From Telmatobacter sp. DSM 110680 (lineage in GTDB: Bacteria; Acidobacteriota; Terriglobia; Terriglobales; Acidobacteriaceae): DNA of 64,000 bases. The notes beneath the pieces were generated by a model, which worked only from the letters and a program-made list of their open reading frames with translations, made no database searches and was not told where the DNA came from. The stretch is from the NCBI RefSeq assembly GCF_039994875.1, contig NZ_CP121196.1, positions 1,674,001-1,738,000 on the forward strand, given 5' to 3'. Position 1 is the stretch's first letter, and each line of letters opens with the position of its first letter. Below, piece after piece: positions 52,599-59,451 of this stretch. The position numbers and the translations under genes were made by a program.

Positions 52599-54407
52599 TC
52601 AACGATGAACGTCAGACCCCACACCGAACATCGGGGAATGGTGGGTCTCCAATACTTTGCCGTTGCCAAGATACATGTGCACACCGCATGGGAGGCAAGG
52701 ATCAAAGCTGCGCACTGCGCGCATGATATCGATGCCCTTGAATTTGTCCGGACCATTCTCCTCGAAGATTGGCGTATTCTGTACCGCATCCTCATACGGA
52801 CCGGGAGTGCCATAGCAATCGCGTGGGTTGGCATTCCAAGGCGTAGGAGGATAAGGGTGATAGTTGGCGATCTTGTGGTCCTTTATCACGACGTGATGCG
52901 AAAGAACACCGCGCACTGCCTCGTGGAATCCGCAGCCGATAGCTTCTTCAGGGACCTTGAAGTCGTTCCATGTACGGGTGCGGCCGGCGTGCAACTCTGC
53001 CAGCGCCTGTTCGGCGAAGTAGAGTGCTGCCGCCGCTGCGTAGGCCTGGAAATAAGTGCGGGCGCGATCGCGTTCGATGGCATTGCTCCACTTGGGTATG
53101 TGCCATTCAAATTCGGTTTCTGGGAGAGAGACGGTCTTCGGCAAGTAGATTTTGACGCTGTGGCCGGTGGCCTTGATGTAGCCGATGTCAACGATGCCTG
53201 CAAGCGCCGTTGCCCAGAACCGTGCGATGGGGCCGCCGCCCGTGTCGAGCGCAAGGTAGTCACCCGTTCGCTTGTCGTACCACCGGGGAGACATGACCCA
53301 GGTGTATTTATCTTTGAAGTCGCGCTTCTGTGGCTTCGGGAAAGTGCTCTGATTCCACGGATGGCGCTGATCGACAGGGTTCCCGAGAGGATCCTTGGCC
53401 ACGAAGGTCTGTGAGTTTTGCCAGTCATCGTAATAAGAGCTGCCGAGCAGGATGCGGATGTTGAGATTGATATCAACGAGGTCGTGGGTCACGAGTTGGC
53501 CGTCTACAACGACGCCTGGTGTGACGTACATAGCGCTACCCCACTCCGACATATTCTTGTAGGTATAGTCGCAGACGTCGGGATTGTTAAACGACCCCCA
53601 GCAGCCGAGGAGGATGCGACGGCGTCCTACTTCTTCGTAGCCGGGCATGGCTTCGTAGATGAAGTTGAAGAGATCGTCGTGGAGCGGCACGACCTTCTTC
53701 ATGAACTCGACATACTTCATCAAGCGAACGATGTAGTCAGTGAAAAGCTGGACGGTGGGAACTGTGCCGACTCCACCCGGATACAGAGTCGAAGGATGGA
53801 CGTGACGTCCTTCCATCAGGCAGAACATCTCACGCGTCATGCGGCTGACTTGCAAGGCTTCGATATAGAATGCGCCGGTGAAGGGATTGAGCGCCGTCAT
53901 AATGTCGCCGATAGTTTTGAAACCATGCAGCTCGGCATGCGGTGACGCAGTCTTGGCTGCCTTCTCCCACACGCCGGGGTTGGTTTCTTTCACCATCTTT
54001 TCGCAGAAGTCGACGCCGACCAGATTGTCCTGGAAGATGTTGTGGTCAAACATGTATTCGGCGGCTTCACCAAGGTTGACGATCCACTCAGCCATGGCGG
54101 GGGGGCGGACACCGAAGGCCATGTTCTGCGCATAGGTCGCGCAAGTGGCGTGATTGTCGCCGCAGATGCCGCAGATGCGACTGGTGATGAAATGGGCGTC
54201 GCGCGGATCCTTGCCTTTCATGAAGATGCTGTATCCACGGAAGATAGAGGAGGTGCTGTGGCACTCTGCGACTTTGCGTTTGCCGAAATCGATTTTTGTG
54301 AAGATGCCGAGGCTGCCGACGATCCGCGTAATCGGATCCCAATTCATTTCTACTAACTGGCTCTTTCCAGCCTCTTGCTCCGAATGAGTAGCGGTAATCG
54401 TGCCCAT
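52599..54407 (-). CDS. hhyL: [NiFe]-hydrogenase large subunit, group 1h type
   Basis: A 602-residue catalytic subunit. The nickel site Cys pairs are in RICGICGDNHATC (L1, Cys79 and Cys82) and DPCLPCGVH (L2, Cys571 and Cys574). The 25 residues after His577 form the tail expected to be cut off by the maturation protease. MNWDPITRIVGSLGIFTKID is the N-terminal signature. Group 1h enzymes oxidise H2 at trace, even atmospheric, levels and tolerate O2. A strong AAGGAGAA site lies 8 nt before ATG 54407, 24 bp after hhyS. The L1 motif (RxCGxCxxxH) and the accessory genes decide the group assignment; no phylogeny was done. Confidence 0.96.
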   Translation of the reverse strand: MGTITATHSEQEAGKSQLVEMNWDPITRIVGSLGIFTKIDFGKRKVAECHSTSSIFRGYSIFMKGKDPRDAHFITSRICGICGDNHATCATYAQNMAFGVRPPAMAEWIVNLGEAAEYMFDHNIFQDNLVGVDFCEKMVKETNPGVWEKAAKTASPHAELHGFKTIGDIMTALNPFTGAFYIEALQVSRMTREMFCLMEGRHVHPSTLYPGGVGTVPTVQLFTDYIVRLMKYVEFMKKVVPLHDDLFNFIYEAMPGYEEVGRRRILLGCWGSFNNPDVCDYTYKNMSEWGSAMYVTPGVVVDGQLVTHDLVDINLNIRILLGSSYYDDWQNSQTFVAKDPLGNPVDQRHPWNQSTFPKPQKRDFKDKYTWVMSPRWYDKRTGDYLALDTGGGPIARFWATALAGIVDIGYIKATGHSVKIYLPKTVSLPETEFEWHIPKWSNAIERDRARTYFQAYAAAAALYFAEQALAELHAGRTRTWNDFKVPEEAIGCGFHEAVRGVLSHHVVIKDHKIANYHPYPPTPWNANPRDCYGTPGPYEDAVQNTPIFEENGPDKFKGIDIMRAVRSFDPCLPCGVHMYLGNGKVLETHHSPMFGVGSDVHR

Positions 54408-54431: not shown

Positions 54432-55496
54432 TTAGTAGGAACTGGACTTGTAGCCCGTAGTGAGTTCGGCGCGCGGATGCCGCCACTTGGGCTCTTTGTT
54501 GACAGTCGAATTCGTAATGCTGCGCAGAGCACGCATCGCCTTGCCGTAGGGACCTATCGACGAAGTGGACAGTTTCGCTCCGGGAGGCTCATCCATGAAC
54601 GGCATGAACTTGTCGGGGAATCCAGGCATGGTGCAGCCAATGCAGATTCCTCCAACGTTAGGACAGCCGCCGATACCGGCCATCCAGCCCCGCTTCGGTA
54701 CATTGCAATTTACGACAGGTCCCCAGCAGCCGAGCTTGACGATGCACTTGGGCGAGCCATAGCTGGTGGCAAAGTCACCCTGCTCGTAATACGCTGCGCG
54801 ATCGCAGCCATCGTGTACGGTCTTGCCGAACAGCCACGTCGGCCGCAACTGCTCATCGAGAGGAATCATGGGCGCGAGGCCCGCAACTTGATACAGCAGG
54901 TAAAGCACTGTTTCCATGAAGTTATCCGGCTGAACGGGGCACCCAGGAACATTCACGATGGGTAGGCCCGCTTTCGATTTCCAGCCCCAACCAAGGTAGT
55001 CAGCCAGTCCCATGCAGCCGGTCGGATTGCCTTCCATGGCATGAATGCCGCCGTATGTGGCGCATGTGCCACAGGCGATAACGGCCAGTGCTTTGGGCGT
55101 GAGGCGATCGATCCATTCGTTGGTGGTGATCGGCTGTCCGGTGTGCGGATCGGTCCCCAGCCCTGCCCAGTAACCTTCCTTCTTGATCTTCTCGTTGGGG
55201 ATGGAACCTTCAACAACCAGGACGAATGGATCAAGCCTGCCGGCCTCTGCTTCATACCAGAACTTCATGAAGTCATCGCCGCACTCGTAGGCGAGCACGG
55301 GATTATGCAGGTGAACTTTCGGTAATCCTGGAATTGCGCCGAGTAAAACATCTTCGATGCTTGGTTGCGTGGCCGCCGTGATGGAGACGGAATCTCCGTC
55401 GCAACCCAGACCGGCGGTGATCCACAATATGTGCAGTTCAGCCACAGCGGGTTTTTTCTGGGTGACTCGACCATAGGGTACAGCTTGTGCGGTCAT
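54432..55496 (-). CDS. hhyS: [NiFe]-hydrogenase small subunit, group 1h type
   Basis: A 354-residue electron-transfer subunit. It lacks a Tat signal, so the enzyme stays on the cytoplasmic side. The proximal-cluster motif is GLGCDGDS: Cys32 is kept but the second position is Asp35 instead of Cys, a change known from the actinobacterial-type hydrogenase of Ralstonia. The remaining proximal ligands are in CGTCATYGG and VPGCPVQPDN. Medial and distal cluster ligands lie in HDGCDRAAYYEQGDF, KCIVKLGCWGPVVNC and GGCPNVGGICIGCTMPGFP. AAGGAGAT is 9 nt before the ATG. Downstream of a 527-bp regulatory interval. Confidence 0.96.
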   Translation of the reverse strand: MTAQAVPYGRVTQKKPAVAELHILWITAGLGCDGDSVSITAATQPSIEDVLLGAIPGLPKVHLHNPVLAYECGDDFMKFWYEAEAGRLDPFVLVVEGSIPNEKIKKEGYWAGLGTDPHTGQPITTNEWIDRLTPKALAVIACGTCATYGGIHAMEGNPTGCMGLADYLGWGWKSKAGLPIVNVPGCPVQPDNFMETVLYLLYQVAGLAPMIPLDEQLRPTWLFGKTVHDGCDRAAYYEQGDFATSYGSPKCIVKLGCWGPVVNCNVPKRGWMAGIGGCPNVGGICIGCTMPGFPDKFMPFMDEPPGAKLSTSSIGPYGKAMRALRSITNSTVNKEPKWRHPRAELTTGYKSSSY

Positions 55497-56023
55497 GATC
55501 TGGGATCTCCTTTACGGATTCTGGCTGGCCTGCTTCTTTCACGCTGCCTAAGAACTGGGCGAACCAAGTGTGAGTTGGCTCGCACAACTTGCAAGAAAAA
55601 GGTCAGCGGCGACACACGCGAGTGAAACCCGGAAGACGGGAACGATCTCGCTTACGCATCGCCGCTGCAGAGAACTTAGCTTGGAGCCGACCTTTGTTAA
55701 CTGTTCAAATCCAGCAATTCTGTCTCTCGATTTCGCCTAGTCAATACCGGCGCGGGGTTATCTCAAAAGACGAGGGGAAGATGCCTTCATCGAACACTGG
55801 CTATCCCACCAGACAGCGGGAAATAGTCGCAAGCGGGACCGGCCCTATTCTAACTTCATACTTTTCGCACTGGCTGGATAAGGGAAAACCCGATTTCGGT
55901 AGCTCCCAGTGAAGACGTTGGAGCAATGCCCTTTGGAAGGTGCAAATACTTATGATCGGAAAACATGTCGTCGCAAATCCTCCTGATAAAGTTCGCTTCT
56001 TGAAGAGTTCATCGAATACGAAA
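55497..56023. other. 527-bp regulatory interval upstream of the hydrogenase operon
   Basis: No gene is supported here. It separates the regulator gene from hhyS and should contain the hydrogenase promoter. A near-palindrome GTGTGAG-TTGG-CTCGCAC lies at 55568-55585, 72-89 nt before the hhyS start. No good sigma-54 site is seen on the coding strand. Confidence 0.5.
55568..55585. promoter_or_regulatory. near-palindromic candidate operator of hhyS
   Basis: GTGTGAG and CTCGCAC half-sites (one mismatch) flank TTGG. Candidate binding site for the adjacent NarL-type regulator; based on symmetry and position only. Confidence 0.3.
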
Positions 56024-56704
56024 TTATTCGCCGATCTTCCATTGAATTGCATGCTGAATCAGCTCTCGTCCGCTACGCAGGGCGAGCTTCTCTTTGATGT
56101 GAGCCTGGTAGGTTTCCACTGTTTTGATACTCAAGTGGAGTTCCTCGGCGATCTCCCGAGTGCCGCGGCCCTCGCCGATCAACCGAAAGACTTCCAGTTC
56201 GCGATCGGAGAGAGACGCGATGCGGGACTGGATCATGGAGGGAGCGCCGCCGATATACTGCTGCAGCATCTTGTTGGACATGCGCTCGCTGAGGTAGACC
56301 TCTCCGTTGAGAATGCGGCGCACGGCCACAAGCACTTTCTCGGTGGCCTCCTGCTTCATGATGTAGCCGTTGGCTCGGGCGCGGAGAGCACGCTCGGCGT
56401 ATATTGCTTCATCGTGCATGGAGAGAACGAGAACAGGCAGATCAGGATTGGTGGCGCGGATATTCTTGAGGATATCGAGCCCATCAGGCCCATTTAGGGA
56501 GATGTCGAGGATCATGATGTCAGGGCGCAACTGCGCTATGGCATGCATTGCCGCCTGAGCCTCCTCAGCTTCGCCGCATACCTGCATGTCGTGCTGCTGA
56601 TTGATCAGCAGCGCCAGGCCCTGCCGCATGAGCGGGTGATCGTCAACAACCAGCACAGTCTTCTTGCCGTACTGCGATCGGTCAAGGACAGAATTTGTCG
56701 TCAT
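56024..56704 (-). CDS. NarL/FixJ-family response regulator of the hydrogenase locus
   Basis: A 226-residue regulator. The receiver domain has VLVVDDHPLMRQGL, phosphoacceptor Asp in IMILDISLNGPDG, Ser in VLVLSMHDE and Lys in GYIMKQEATEKVL. The C-terminal LuxR-type helix-turn-helix has LSDRELEVFRLIGEGRGTREIA and LSIKTVETYQAHI. All key residues are present. ATG 56704 overlaps the end of the kinase gene by 23 bp; the frame runs on to 56755 without a better start. It lies directly upstream of the hhyS promoter interval, so the hydrogenase operon is its likely target. Confidence 0.94.
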   Translation of the reverse strand: MTTNSVLDRSQYGKKTVLVVDDHPLMRQGLALLINQQHDMQVCGEAEEAQAAMHAIAQLRPDIMILDISLNGPDGLDILKNIRATNPDLPVLVLSMHDEAIYAERALRARANGYIMKQEATEKVLVAVRRILNGEVYLSERMSNKMLQQYIGGAPSMIQSRIASLSDRELEVFRLIGEGRGTREIAEELHLSIKTVETYQAHIKEKLALRSGRELIQHAIQWKIGE

Positions 56705-58301
56705 TGGCTTTTCCCTTTCCCTGCGCGGCTTCGATGGGGAACATGCAGATGACACAGGTGCCGTGAGGCAGATTTGGGCGAATCTCCAACCTTCCGCCGA
56801 TCATGCCCGCCCTGTAGCTCATGATGTGCAGGCCCATTCCGGGGGTCGACGCTCGATCTTCTGCGATGCCTGTGCCGTCATCGCGGATGATCAGTTTGCC
56901 CCATCCGCCTTCCGCGGTCAGGCTGATTATGATGCCAGAGACGTGTCCGTGCTTGATGGCGTTGTTCACCGCCTCCTGCGCAATGTGATACAGATGCGTG
57001 GCCATGGCATCATCGTGAATGAGCACGTCGGTCGCACACTCAAAGCCGCAGGAGATTCCGAACAGATCTTCCACTTCGCCCGCCCGGAGTTGGAGTGCCG
57101 ACATCAGTCCCTGTGAATCCGAGACAACCGGAAGAAGGCCACGCGCCAGCTCGCGCGTTTTATGGATCGCTTCGTTCACCAGCTTTACGATCTTCGCGGC
57201 GTCGGCTGTGTCCGGAAGCTGTTTCTCGGCGAGCTTTGCTTCATGGGCTTTGGCCATGAACGCGATGCCTGTTAGATGTTGGCCTAGTCCATCATGCAGA
57301 TCCTGACCGATGCGCCGCTGCTCGCGCGCACTGATCTCCAACAGCGCTCTCTCCAGTTGTTCGCGTTCGGTGATATCGATACCGGTGGCGATGATGTACC
57401 GAGGTATCCCATCATCGCTGCCAGGCAACATCGAGCAAGACCAGGCGATCAGACGATTCGTATTGTGTCGCGTCACCCAGTGACTCTGAAAATCCTGGGG
57501 AAGCAGGTCCCCGCTTAATTGCAGAAGCACGGACCTTGCGCGTTCCGCCTCTTCTTCTTGTTGGAAGAACTCCCACAGGCGCCTGCCGCGTACCTCGTCC
57601 AGTGCATATGCGGTGGTTAGCTCGCATGCTCGATTGAAGCGCACGATGCGTCCATCGAGGTCGAGGACAGTCACGAGCGCACCGACCGTATCGAGAATTG
57701 CGGACACAGTGTTGCGTTCCTGTTGCAGGGCGCGTTCAGTGTCTTTCAAATCCGTGATATCGATCGCCACGCCATGAATGAACCACGGTGAACCGTCAGG
57801 ACGGCGCACCATACGCGCATCGCAGTGGAACCATACAACGCGACCGTCGCGCGCCATGACACGATAAGAGGAGCGCAGCGGCTTGCCGGAGAGAAACATT
57901 CCGGCAGCCTCAAGGCTCCAGCGTTGCTTGTCGTCGGGATGGATGCGTGCGTACCATCGCACCGGATCTTCAAGCCACTCTTCGCGCGAATAACCGAGTG
58001 CTGCCTCAATCTCAGGACTGACGAATGCCTCGCTCACGCCACGATCGAGGTACGCCATGAAAACCACGGCTGGGATCTGTTCAAGAAGCGCGCGGTATTT
58101 GGCTTCGAGATTCGACGCGTCGGACTGATCGGATGGCGATAGATCGTTGACCGCCGCATTGCCCGGCGCAGCGAATACGCTCGCCAGTTCGAGTAGAAGA
58201 GCCTCAGCTGCGCCCAGATCCGGTATCACGGGAACACTACCCCACTCGGCCTCGCGTTGAGAGGGCCGGTCTTCCCATTCGGTTTGCGCCAGCAATGCCA
58301 T
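56682..58301 (-). CDS. PAS-domain sensor histidine kinase (HisKA_3) of the hydrogenase locus
   Basis: A 539-residue soluble kinase. Two PAS domains (about residues 68-195 and 200-320; first AVVFMAYLDRGVSEAFVSPE, HPDDKQRW, MARDGRVVWFHCDARM; second LVTVLDLDGRIVRFNRACEL) precede the HisKA_3 helix with His in RRIGQDLHDGLGQHLTG and a HATPase domain (YHIAQEAVNNAIKH, IRDDGTGI, GMGLHIM). No membrane segment. GGAG lies 7 nt before ATG 58301. The gene starts 46 bp after the solitary small-subunit gene and overlaps the regulator gene, so the three form one unit. A PAS domain could bind haem, flavin or respond to the small subunit. Confidence 0.94.
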   Translation of the reverse strand: MALLAQTEWEDRPSQREAEWGSVPVIPDLGAAEALLLELASVFAAPGNAAVNDLSPSDQSDASNLEAKYRALLEQIPAVVFMAYLDRGVSEAFVSPEIEAALGYSREEWLEDPVRWYARIHPDDKQRWSLEAAGMFLSGKPLRSSYRVMARDGRVVWFHCDARMVRRPDGSPWFIHGVAIDITDLKDTERALQQERNTVSAILDTVGALVTVLDLDGRIVRFNRACELTTAYALDEVRGRRLWEFFQQEEEAERARSVLLQLSGDLLPQDFQSHWVTRHNTNRLIAWSCSMLPGSDDGIPRYIIATGIDITEREQLERALLEISAREQRRIGQDLHDGLGQHLTGIAFMAKAHEAKLAEKQLPDTADAAKIVKLVNEAIHKTRELARGLLPVVSDSQGLMSALQLRAGEVEDLFGISCGFECATDVLIHDDAMATHLYHIAQEAVNNAIKHGHVSGIIISLTAEGGWGKLIIRDDGTGIAEDRASTPGMGLHIMSYRAGMIGGRLEIRPNLPHGTCVICMFPIEAAQGKGKANDDKFCP

Positions 58302-58347
58302 TCATCACTCCGGTGTAAGGCTTGCTTACAAATCTTCAGGTTGGATG

Positions 58348-59451
58348 TCAGTCGGACTTGCCGGGGACAGATTGCCGTTGACGCCAGCTTGGAACTTTGT
58401 TCAGAGATGCCTGGGTAAATTTGCGTAAAGCATGGATAGCGCGCCCATAGGTTTCGACGGCGGCCGATGATAGGAGTGAACCGGGTGGTTGATTCATGAA
58501 CGGCATAAATTTGTCTGGGAAGCCAGGCATGGTGCAGCCAATACAGATTCCGCCAACATTGGGACAGCCGCCAATCCCGCCCATCCACCCGCGCTTGCCT
58601 ACATTGCATTGCACGACTGGTCCCCAACAACCCAGTTTTACGATGCAAAGCGGTGACCCGTACTCCTCGGCAAACTGAGCCTGTTCGTAATATCCGCCGC
58701 GATCGCACCCCTCGTGCACTGTGCTACCGAAAAGCCAGGTGGGTCTAAGCGCGCTGTCGAGAGGGATCATCGGCGACCGTCCAGCAGCCATGTACAACAG
58801 GTAGAGAAGCGTCTCCATGAAGTTGTCAGGCTGCACGGGACATCCGGGAACGCAGACGATCGGGATTTTCGCTTTTGACTGCCATTGCCACCCGAGATAG
58901 TCGGGCAGGCCCATGCAGCCGGTGGGATTGCCCTCCATCGCATGGATGCCGCCATAAGTCGCACAGGTTCCCACCGCAATTACCGCCCAGGCATGCGGCG
59001 CGAGGCGGTCGATCCACGCACAGGTGGTTATGGGCTGGCCGGTTGCAGCGTCAGTGCCGAGCGATGCCCAATAGCCCTCTTGCTTATTGTTTTCGTTGGG
59101 GATGGAACCTTCAACAACAAGGATGAAGGGATCGACGCCGCCATCGGCAGCCAGGTGAAATCGACGCAGAAACTCATCCCCATTTTCAAAAGAGAGGAAT
59201 GGGTTGTGGAAGTTGACCTTGGGTATCCATGGAATACCACCCCGGATGACGTCCTCAATGCTAGGCTGCGTCGCAGCCGTCATGGCGATAGTGTCACCAT
59301 CGCATCCGAGCCCTGCGGTAATCCATAGAACATCGATCTCCGCAATTGGCGGAGTCGAATGGGCCGAGCTTGCCACAGGACCTCCCGTGCCGGCGCCCAC
59401 CAGGGGAAGTGGCGCACGAAATATCTTCCTCCTGAAAGAGGACTTAGGCAA
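58348..59451 (-). CDS. solitary second [NiFe]-hydrogenase small subunit (putative sensor subunit)
   Basis: Up to 367 residues, a clear paralogue of hhyS over its full length: LWITAGLGCDGDTI with the same Cys-x-x-Asp proximal motif, GTCATYGGIHAMEGNP, VPGCPVQPDNFMETLL, HEGCDRGGYYEQ, LGCWGPVVQCN and GGCPNVGGICIGCTMPGFP. All cluster ligands of the canonical copy are kept. There is no second large subunit in the window. The start is uncertain: TTG 59451 gives a 34-residue basic N-terminal extension; GTG 59376 with GGGAGG close upstream gives a length like hhyS. It is followed at 46 bp by the PAS kinase, which suggests a signalling role, perhaps with HhyL as partner. Confidence 0.92.
   Translation of the reverse strand: MPKSSFRRKIFRAPLPLVGAGTGGPVASSAHSTPPIAEIDVLWITAGLGCDGDTIAMTAATQPSIEDVIRGGIPWIPKVNFHNPFLSFENGDEFLRRFHLAADGGVDPFILVVEGSIPNENNKQEGYWASLGTDAATGQPITTCAWIDRLAPHAWAVIAVGTCATYGGIHAMEGNPTGCMGLPDYLGWQWQSKAKIPIVCVPGCPVQPDNFMETLLYLLYMAAGRSPMIPLDSALRPTWLFGSTVHEGCDRGGYYEQAQFAEEYGSPLCIVKLGCWGPVVQCNVGKRGWMGGIGGCPNVGGICIGCTMPGFPDKFMPFMNQPPGSLLSSAAVETYGRAIHALRKFTQASLNKVPSWRQRQSVPGKSD

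Follow-up and report, generated by a model that had tools for sequence, protein, structure and literature searches.

Soil bacteria with high-affinity hydrogenases are a main sink for atmospheric H2. To our knowledge, how Acidobacteriota adjust these enzymes has been little studied. Here we describe a gene set of Telmatobacter sp. DSM 110680, contained in a stretch of 64,000 nucleotides (NZ_CP121196.1, positions 1,674,001 to 1,738,000; 'the window'). It consists of a second small-subunit gene of group 1h [NiFe]-hydrogenases (hhyS2), a sensor histidine kinase gene and a response regulator gene, upstream of the hydrogenase genes hhyS and hhyL (hhySL). Together the three very probably make up a conserved unit devoted to control of the 1h hydrogenase.

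The closest described arrangement is that of group 2b, with HoxBC-HoxJ-HoxA of Cupriavidus necator and HupUV-HupT-HupR. As in the window, hydrogenase subunit genes adjoin those of a histidine kinase and a response regulator, and hydrogenase genes are the likely target. HydDB lists group 2b as H2-sensing, kinase-linked [NiFe]-hydrogenases and gives a sensor role as putative for group 2c and [FeFe] group C (PMC5037454). HoxBC is described as joined to its kinase in a complex of two heterodimers and a kinase tetramer (PMC5665086). The putative [FeFe] group C1 hydrogenases are likewise linked to histidine kinases, and H2 sensing is proposed for them (PMC5037454); they belong to a different hydrogenase class, and kinship is not expected.

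The initial annotation had set the Telmatobacter module apart from HupUV and HoxBC, and this distinction stands. HhyS2 belongs to group 1h, with 33.6% identity to HoxB, and no large subunit adjoins it in the window. The regulator is of the NarL type (Response_reg and GerE), whereas that of group 2b is sigma-54-type (NtrC-type). A profile of the first PAS domain of the kinase (PAS1) has no match in HoxJ, and the whole kinase reaches only E 0.1 against it; homology of PAS1 to HoxJ was rejected on the missing match.

The other close relative is the group 1h enzyme itself, HhySL or HofKG. HhyS2 and HhyS are sister clades and agree in their ligand positions; unlike HhyS, it is kinase-linked, typically carries Cys144 and Cys200, and usually has no adjoining large subunit. 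An extra hhyS copy has been published for KBS 83, E. aggregans and Pyrinomonas (PMC8027828), evidently the same gene as hhyS2; these organisms are represented by loci L013, L017 and L061 of the present set (L and G labels denote loci and genomes). The main text of that paper contains neither 'histidine kinase' nor a word beginning 'operon' or 'regulat', and no part in kinase signalling or sensing is assigned to the copy in the texts consulted. One hhyL per strain was given by Eichorst et al. (PMC5900883). Among the titles and abstract openings of the matches listed, no paper describes a kinase-linked 1h small subunit; a mention in Greening et al. 2015 (PNAS) or in supplements is possible. The extra copy was already known; new here are the HhyS2 clade, its link to PAS1, a palindrome that precedes hhyS, and relatives that have a large subunit.

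HhyS2 as a distinct clade of group 1h small subunits

Transcription in the window runs through hhyS2, the kinase gene, the regulator gene, a 527 bp gap, hhyS and hhyL. The initial annotation had proposed a solitary small subunit gene followed at 46 bp by a double-PAS kinase gene, which overlaps a regulator gene placed before the hydrogenase promoter interval. Coordinates and Pfam domains (PAS_3 and PAS_4 in the kinase) agree with this description. The overlap is 74 bp from GTG 56755, where the regulator frame begins, or 23 bp from ATG 56704, which better fits the lengths of relatives.

HhyS2 carries the Pfam domains Oxidored_q6 and NiFe_hyd_SSU_C and is 70% identical to HhyS over 337 amino acids. 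As had been proposed, it is a group 1h paralogue, with 571 bits to the solved HofK (5aa5) and a place in the sister clade of HhyS; the adjacent catalytic large subunit of group 1h is missing beside the window's copy. A genome scan gave 70 loci, of which 55 provided HhyS2 rows for a tree and six had HhyS only; nine (L011, L062, L073, L075-L080) were left out as fragments or split frames. In the tree of 92 small subunits, 56 HhyS2 and 36 HhyS sequences separate with a support of 99 (SH-aLRT, quick search). The value stayed at 99 when six Myxococcota rows were added and was 85 with 14 other rows (one partial), no earlier row crossing the split. The HhyS side holds Cupriavidus HofK, sequences of Methylocystis and Streptomyces, and the acidobacterial HhyS rows.

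The Cys and His positions that we take to be cluster ligands, by analogy with solved hydrogenases, are present in the window's HhyS2 together with the C-x-x-D motif. They are kept in the 56 HhyS2 sequences, except that the Asp of C-x-x-D is Glu in nine and one Cys is Ala in L056; the cysteines assigned as proximal ligands do not vary (56/56). The clade has two further characteristic cysteines. Cys200, which precedes Cys204 by four residues, is found in 48/56 HhyS2, and its place is taken by Asn in 35/36 HhyS as well as in HoxB and HofK; Cys144 is found in 50/56 HhyS2 against 2/36 HhyS. The C-terminal half of the small-subunit structure model is of low quality (mean pLDDT 64.4).

Plasmids carry relatives as well: 124 plasmid records match HhyS2, 12 of them at 60-80% identity, and no kinase lies near the match in the two neighbourhoods examined (Cupriavidus and Methylocystis).

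The kinase link and its constant domain

A PAS1 kinase gene lies downstream of HhyS2 in 54 of the 55 loci other than the window; in the 55th, L040, a single base of the contig follows HhyS2. A conserved link between hydrogenase subunit and kinase, as in H2 sensors of the described kind, is present to this extent. The kinase is the next labelled feature in 49 loci and follows a large-subunit gene in five, with further genes between the two in L070. Chance neighbourhood was rejected because the PAS1 kinase recurs in this way. Nor are the genomic neighbours scattered, since the link is conserved across loci and phyla. It is kept even in KBS 96, though HhyS2 (6.50 Mb) lies 2.7 Mb from hhySL (3.78 Mb). 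The order HhyS2-kinase-regulator-HhyS-HhyL is found in 26 loci, not always gene by gene, and three more reach HhyS at the contig end; HhyS2 and kinase stand alone in twelve. In L069 a frame of transposase-like look (L069:11111-11560) lies between HhyS2 and the kinase.

The initial annotation had described a double-PAS kinase and a NarL regulator. Across the loci PAS1 is constant, and an N-terminal motif nearly so; the kinase core and the regulator type vary. Among 54 linked kinases scanned (the window's and 53 others, leaving out truncated ones and those away from HhyS2, namely L084, L092 and the second one in L049), PAS_3 was found in all 54; 40 carry HisKA_3, nine HisKA, three HisKA_2 and two a receiver domain. 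The PAS1 profile scores linked kinases at 194.9-235 bits (one truncated kinase at 95) and the best unlinked one at 132.9, a gap widened by building the model from linked examples. In the window's genome, PAS1 reaches 226.7 bits and the next best domain 41.9; by this gap, PAS1 as an ordinary PAS domain was rejected. A weaker group of nine PAS1-like domains (103-133 bits) is spread over five Acidobacteriota genomes, only one of which has a 1h hydrogenase. These domains (L104-L112) sit in large kinases, mostly in genomes without the 1h enzyme.

The motif L..LA..[FL] stands ahead of PAS1 in 44/54 linked kinases, against 0.69 expected from shuffling, and in 0/9 of the PAS1-like unlinked kinases, two of which have fewer than 30 residues ahead of PAS1. 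AlphaFold renders the motif as a helix (residues 29-43), mostly at pLDDT <50. The kinase model matches the PAS proteins LOV, NifL and FixL, which tells little about the ligand.

Two different PAS1 kinases occur in each of two genomes, G020 (L037 and L084) and G021 (L038 and L092). In each, one kinase adjoins HhyS2, the other and a regulator precede hhySL, and a single HhyS2 may serve both kinases. On a Rokubacteria contig (L079:5715-8858), only an N-terminal HhyS2 fragment stands directly before a PAS1 kinase; the copy may be broken or the assembly faulty.

Presence and absence follow the same pattern. In a sample of 247 genomes drawn across the Acidobacteriota, 13 have HhyL, and the same 13 carry a 1h small subunit. 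Eight of these 13 have HhyS2, and PAS1 reaches at least 219 bits in these eight and in no others; the other five have neither. Clade membership of all 13 was checked on the tree, for G113, G125 and G136 through loci judged to be the same assemblies from identical coordinates. Among 193 Myxococcota genomes (PAS1 cut-off 1e-45), eight have a 1h-type small subunit, that of G478 being only 46% identical; two of the eight have HhyS2, the same two have PAS1, and the other six fall outside the HhyS2 clade. Several sampled genomes, including both of these Myxococcota, underlie loci of the scan, so that the samples are not independent of it.

Which large subunit?

The window's genome is a single contig of 5,987,865 bp, and a second 1h large subunit that could pair with HhyS2 was sought throughout it. 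The HhyL query found HhyL alone, with no second match at E<=1e-60. PF00374 also marks a HoxKG-like pair (identities of 55 and 53%), a distant large subunit whose frame overlaps a small-subunit-like one of 214 aa, and a frame of 360 aa, presumably NuoD; neither an unpaired large subunit nor a 2b-like pair was seen among them. A hidden partner in this genome was rejected, as neither the HhyL query nor PF00374 revealed one.

Large- and small-subunit searches covered the genomes of 50 of the 70 loci. All 50 contain an HhyL-type match, including 47/47 with HhyS2, some matches being fragments at contig ends. Genome G113 (L058; Blastocatellia, 99% complete) has HhyL without HhyS, leaving HhyS2 as its sole 1h small subunit. 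The genomes of L039, L055 and L070 are further examples, of unestablished completeness, with one HhyS2-type small subunit and no HhyS. In a genome without HhyS, a kinase-regulator pair, OmpR-like by eye, lies directly upstream of HhyL (L086:2482-4136). At L135 (G267:C1:569573-571359), in a single-contig genome, HhyL is divided between two overlapping frames, which may reflect a frameshift or inactivation.

The proposal that only a small subunit is used holds in the window and fails across the clade. In five loci from Planctomycetota, Myxococcota and Chloroflexota (L055, L060, L064, L066 and L070), a large-subunit gene with intact L1 and L2 motifs follows directly after HhyS2; the genomes of L060, L064, L066 and L068 have a second HhyL-type gene too. 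The solitary form may consequently be derived: a complete 1h-type sensor would have come first, its large subunit then being lost in most Acidobacteriota. The reverse, recruitment of a large subunit by HhyS2, is possible. On the large-subunit tree, L055, L060, L064 and L066 form one clade with a support of 92, below the mark of 95; L068-L069, L070 and L039 are placed outside it. With four changes counted on it, the tree does not show a single origin and was rejected as proof of one.

A candidate operator upstream of hhyS

Aligned hhyS upstream regions contain a palindrome, ATCRGGGAWTCCCYGAT. With at most three mismatches and within 350 bp of hhyS, it is present in 27 of 30 promoters from genomes with a window-type regulator (at least 60% identity to the window's) and in 0 of 24 others. 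This contrast is partly circular and confounded, since promoters of the positive group supplied the consensus and the type of regulator goes with lineage. Rows with a weak or truncated HhyS or less than 120 bp upstream were left out of these counts. Shuffled promoters (40 each; the window's was not shuffled) reached three mismatches in 2/53 and never fewer. In the window, the site at 55878-55894 is the only one with three mismatches or fewer.

The specificity of the palindrome in whole genomes is less circular than the promoter contrast. With one mismatch allowed, 34 genomes gave 18 sites in 17 genomes, 16 just before hhyS and two elsewhere (G010, G050), and a reversed control pattern gave no site in the 34. 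The 17 site-free genomes include the window's and G001, G002, G014, G021, G023 and G024, which have a window-type regulator and weaker sites; in the remainder the regulator is divergent or not nearby, or HhyS2 is absent. Genome G032 has its window-type regulator on another contig (L050), and adjacency of the regulator to hhyS is thus not needed. Upstream of hhyS, the same genome has a different kinase-regulator pair without PAS1 (L090:3713-5398), with the HhyS2 unit on another contig.

A second promoter block, B2, resembles AATAGGGTCTGTCCYGCTTGTGA and lies about 45 bp after the palindrome in the window and in L012, L013, L017, L025, L026 and L042. It is strong in near relatives, matches more weakly in L016, L035, L056 and L092, and is perhaps the promoter itself.

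Proposed mechanism and alternatives

In the mechanism we propose, HhyS2 would be a small subunit specific to sensing. It probably binds HhyL in most Acidobacteriota and would share this large subunit with the catalytic HhyS; in certain other phyla a large-subunit gene adjoins hhyS2. Oxidation of H2 at the [NiFe] site would reduce the clusters of HhyS2, and PAS1, perhaps with the N-terminal kinase helix, would bind HhyS2 and read the cluster state or the shape of the complex. The kinase would then alter phosphorylation of the NarL-type regulator, and the latter may bind the palindrome upstream of hhyS and control hhySL, with either sign. That the unit senses H2, or a redox effect of H2, through HhyL is the account we favour with moderate confidence. 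Its fullest form is offered tentatively, at a little short of an even chance: HhyL would be shared between enzyme (with HhyS) and sensor (with kinase-bound HhyS2), the kinase would read trace H2 at the enzyme's own active site, and the system would derive from a complete 1h-type sensor by loss of the large subunit in most Acidobacteriota, independently of group 2b.

Several observations weigh against this account. That H2 is the signal is itself inferred. Cys200 is missing in 8/56 HhyS2 and Cys144 in 6/56, and the large subunits that adjoin HhyS2 do not clearly form a single clade. Four loci in which HhyS2 and kinase stand alone (L037, L047, L053, L059) have more than 4 kb of sequence after HhyS2, and no regulator or hhySL was found in the downstream sequence examined. 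The operator is affected by the partial circularity noted above, and by 17/34 genomes that lack a strict site. The window is one of the three failures in the count of 27/30 because its own site, with three mismatches, lies at -398; L033 and L092 have no site with three mismatches or fewer, and the best site before the window's hhyS2 has six. Finally, the transcript of the hhyS homologue was detected by quantitative PCR in KBS 83 and not in E. aggregans (PMC8027828).

Three other explanations were considered. HhyS2 might work without any large subunit, as a kinase-bound iron-sulphur sensor of redox state or oxygen. Most of the Acidobacteriota genomes searched lack a large subunit of HhyS2's own, no hhySL lies within 10 kb of the HhyS2-kinase pair in L037, L047 and L053, and both the position of Cys200 near a proximal ligand and the Asp-to-Glu change in 9/56 C-x-x-D motifs would suit such a sensor. 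We nevertheless consider it unlikely, given that every HhyS2 genome searched has a 1h-type large subunit, that five relatives have one beside HhyS2, and that the assigned proximal-ligand cysteines are invariant. Ligands of this kind serve transfer from the large subunit. Alternatively, HhyS2 could be a second catalytic small subunit that offers HhyL another electron acceptor, with the kinase regulating the operon and making no contact with HhyS2. Its identity to HhyS, its full ligand set, the genome with HhyL and HhyS2 alone, and the genomes of L039, L055 and L070, whose only small subunit is of the HhyS2 type, are compatible with this role. The kinase link, however, survives where hhySL is elsewhere, kinase cores are swapped while PAS1 is retained, and PAS1 and HhyS2 are jointly present or absent; a purely catalytic HhyS2 appears quite improbable.

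HhyS2 could also report on assembly and not on H2, sampling free mature HhyL and relaying its level to the kinase as feedback. Two observations would fit such feedback: in most Acidobacteriota searched, no large subunit other than HhyL is available as a partner, and the candidate operator stands almost exclusively before hhyS. By contrast, in the genomes of L060, L064 and L066 a large subunit adjoins HhyS2 and another HhyS and HhyL lie elsewhere, an arrangement more in keeping with a sensor of a signal than with a counter of the HhyL pool. We regard assembly sensing as the least likely of the three.

Under the preferred H2-sensing account, the HhyS2 unit is probably a hydrogen gauge that sets the amount of hydrogenase in soil bacteria living on trace H2. 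If so, [NiFe]-hydrogenases gained H2 sensing at least twice, and in one form the sensor and the enzyme under its control have their active site in common. The published extra hhyS copy gains a testable role, with a candidate partner domain (PAS1, perhaps aided by the N-terminal helix), a candidate operator and marker cysteines. Cultivated carriers of HhyS2 are available in KBS 83, KBS 96, Edaphobacter and Pyrinomonas.

Features of the locus and minor observations

Table 1. Features of the HhyS2 locus, in window coordinates
Feature	Position	Strand	Remarks
hhyS2, second group 1h small subunit	58348..59451	(-)	ligand positions kept; Cys144 and Cys200 typical of clade
Sensor histidine kinase, PAS_3 - PAS_4 - HisKA_3 - HATPase_c	56682..58301	(-)	Pfam
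N-terminal kinase segment, residues 29-43, L..LA..[FL] motif	58173..58217	(-)	predicted helix, low confidence; candidate docking element
PAS1 domain, kinase residues 64-195	57717..58112	(-)	element common to HhyS2-linked kinases
Second PAS domain, kinase residues 199-315	57357..57707	(-)	missing from some linked kinases
HisKA_3 and HATPase_c core, kinase residues 327-523	56733..57323	(-)	Pfam
NarL-type response regulator	56024..56755	(-)	Response_reg and GerE; probable start ATG 56704
Candidate regulator site ATCGGGTTTTCCCTTAT	55878..55894	(-)	3 mismatches to ATCRGGGAWTCCCYGAT; 398 bp before hhyS
hhyS, catalytic small subunit	54432..55496	(-)	placed on HhyS side by tree
hhyL, group 1h large subunit	52599..54407	(-)	sole 1h large subunit found in genome

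The hhyS2 frame starts with TTG, and GTG at 59400 or 59376 are possible alternatives. Two records in the set call for care. The 1h small subunit of plasmid records L081 and L082 is annotated 'hydrogenase expression protein HypE', an apparent misnomer. A metagenome-assembled genome labelled betaproteobacterial (CAJCHZ01; L040 and L063) carries HhyS2 and hhySL of the acidobacterial type, on contigs that are probably mis-binned.

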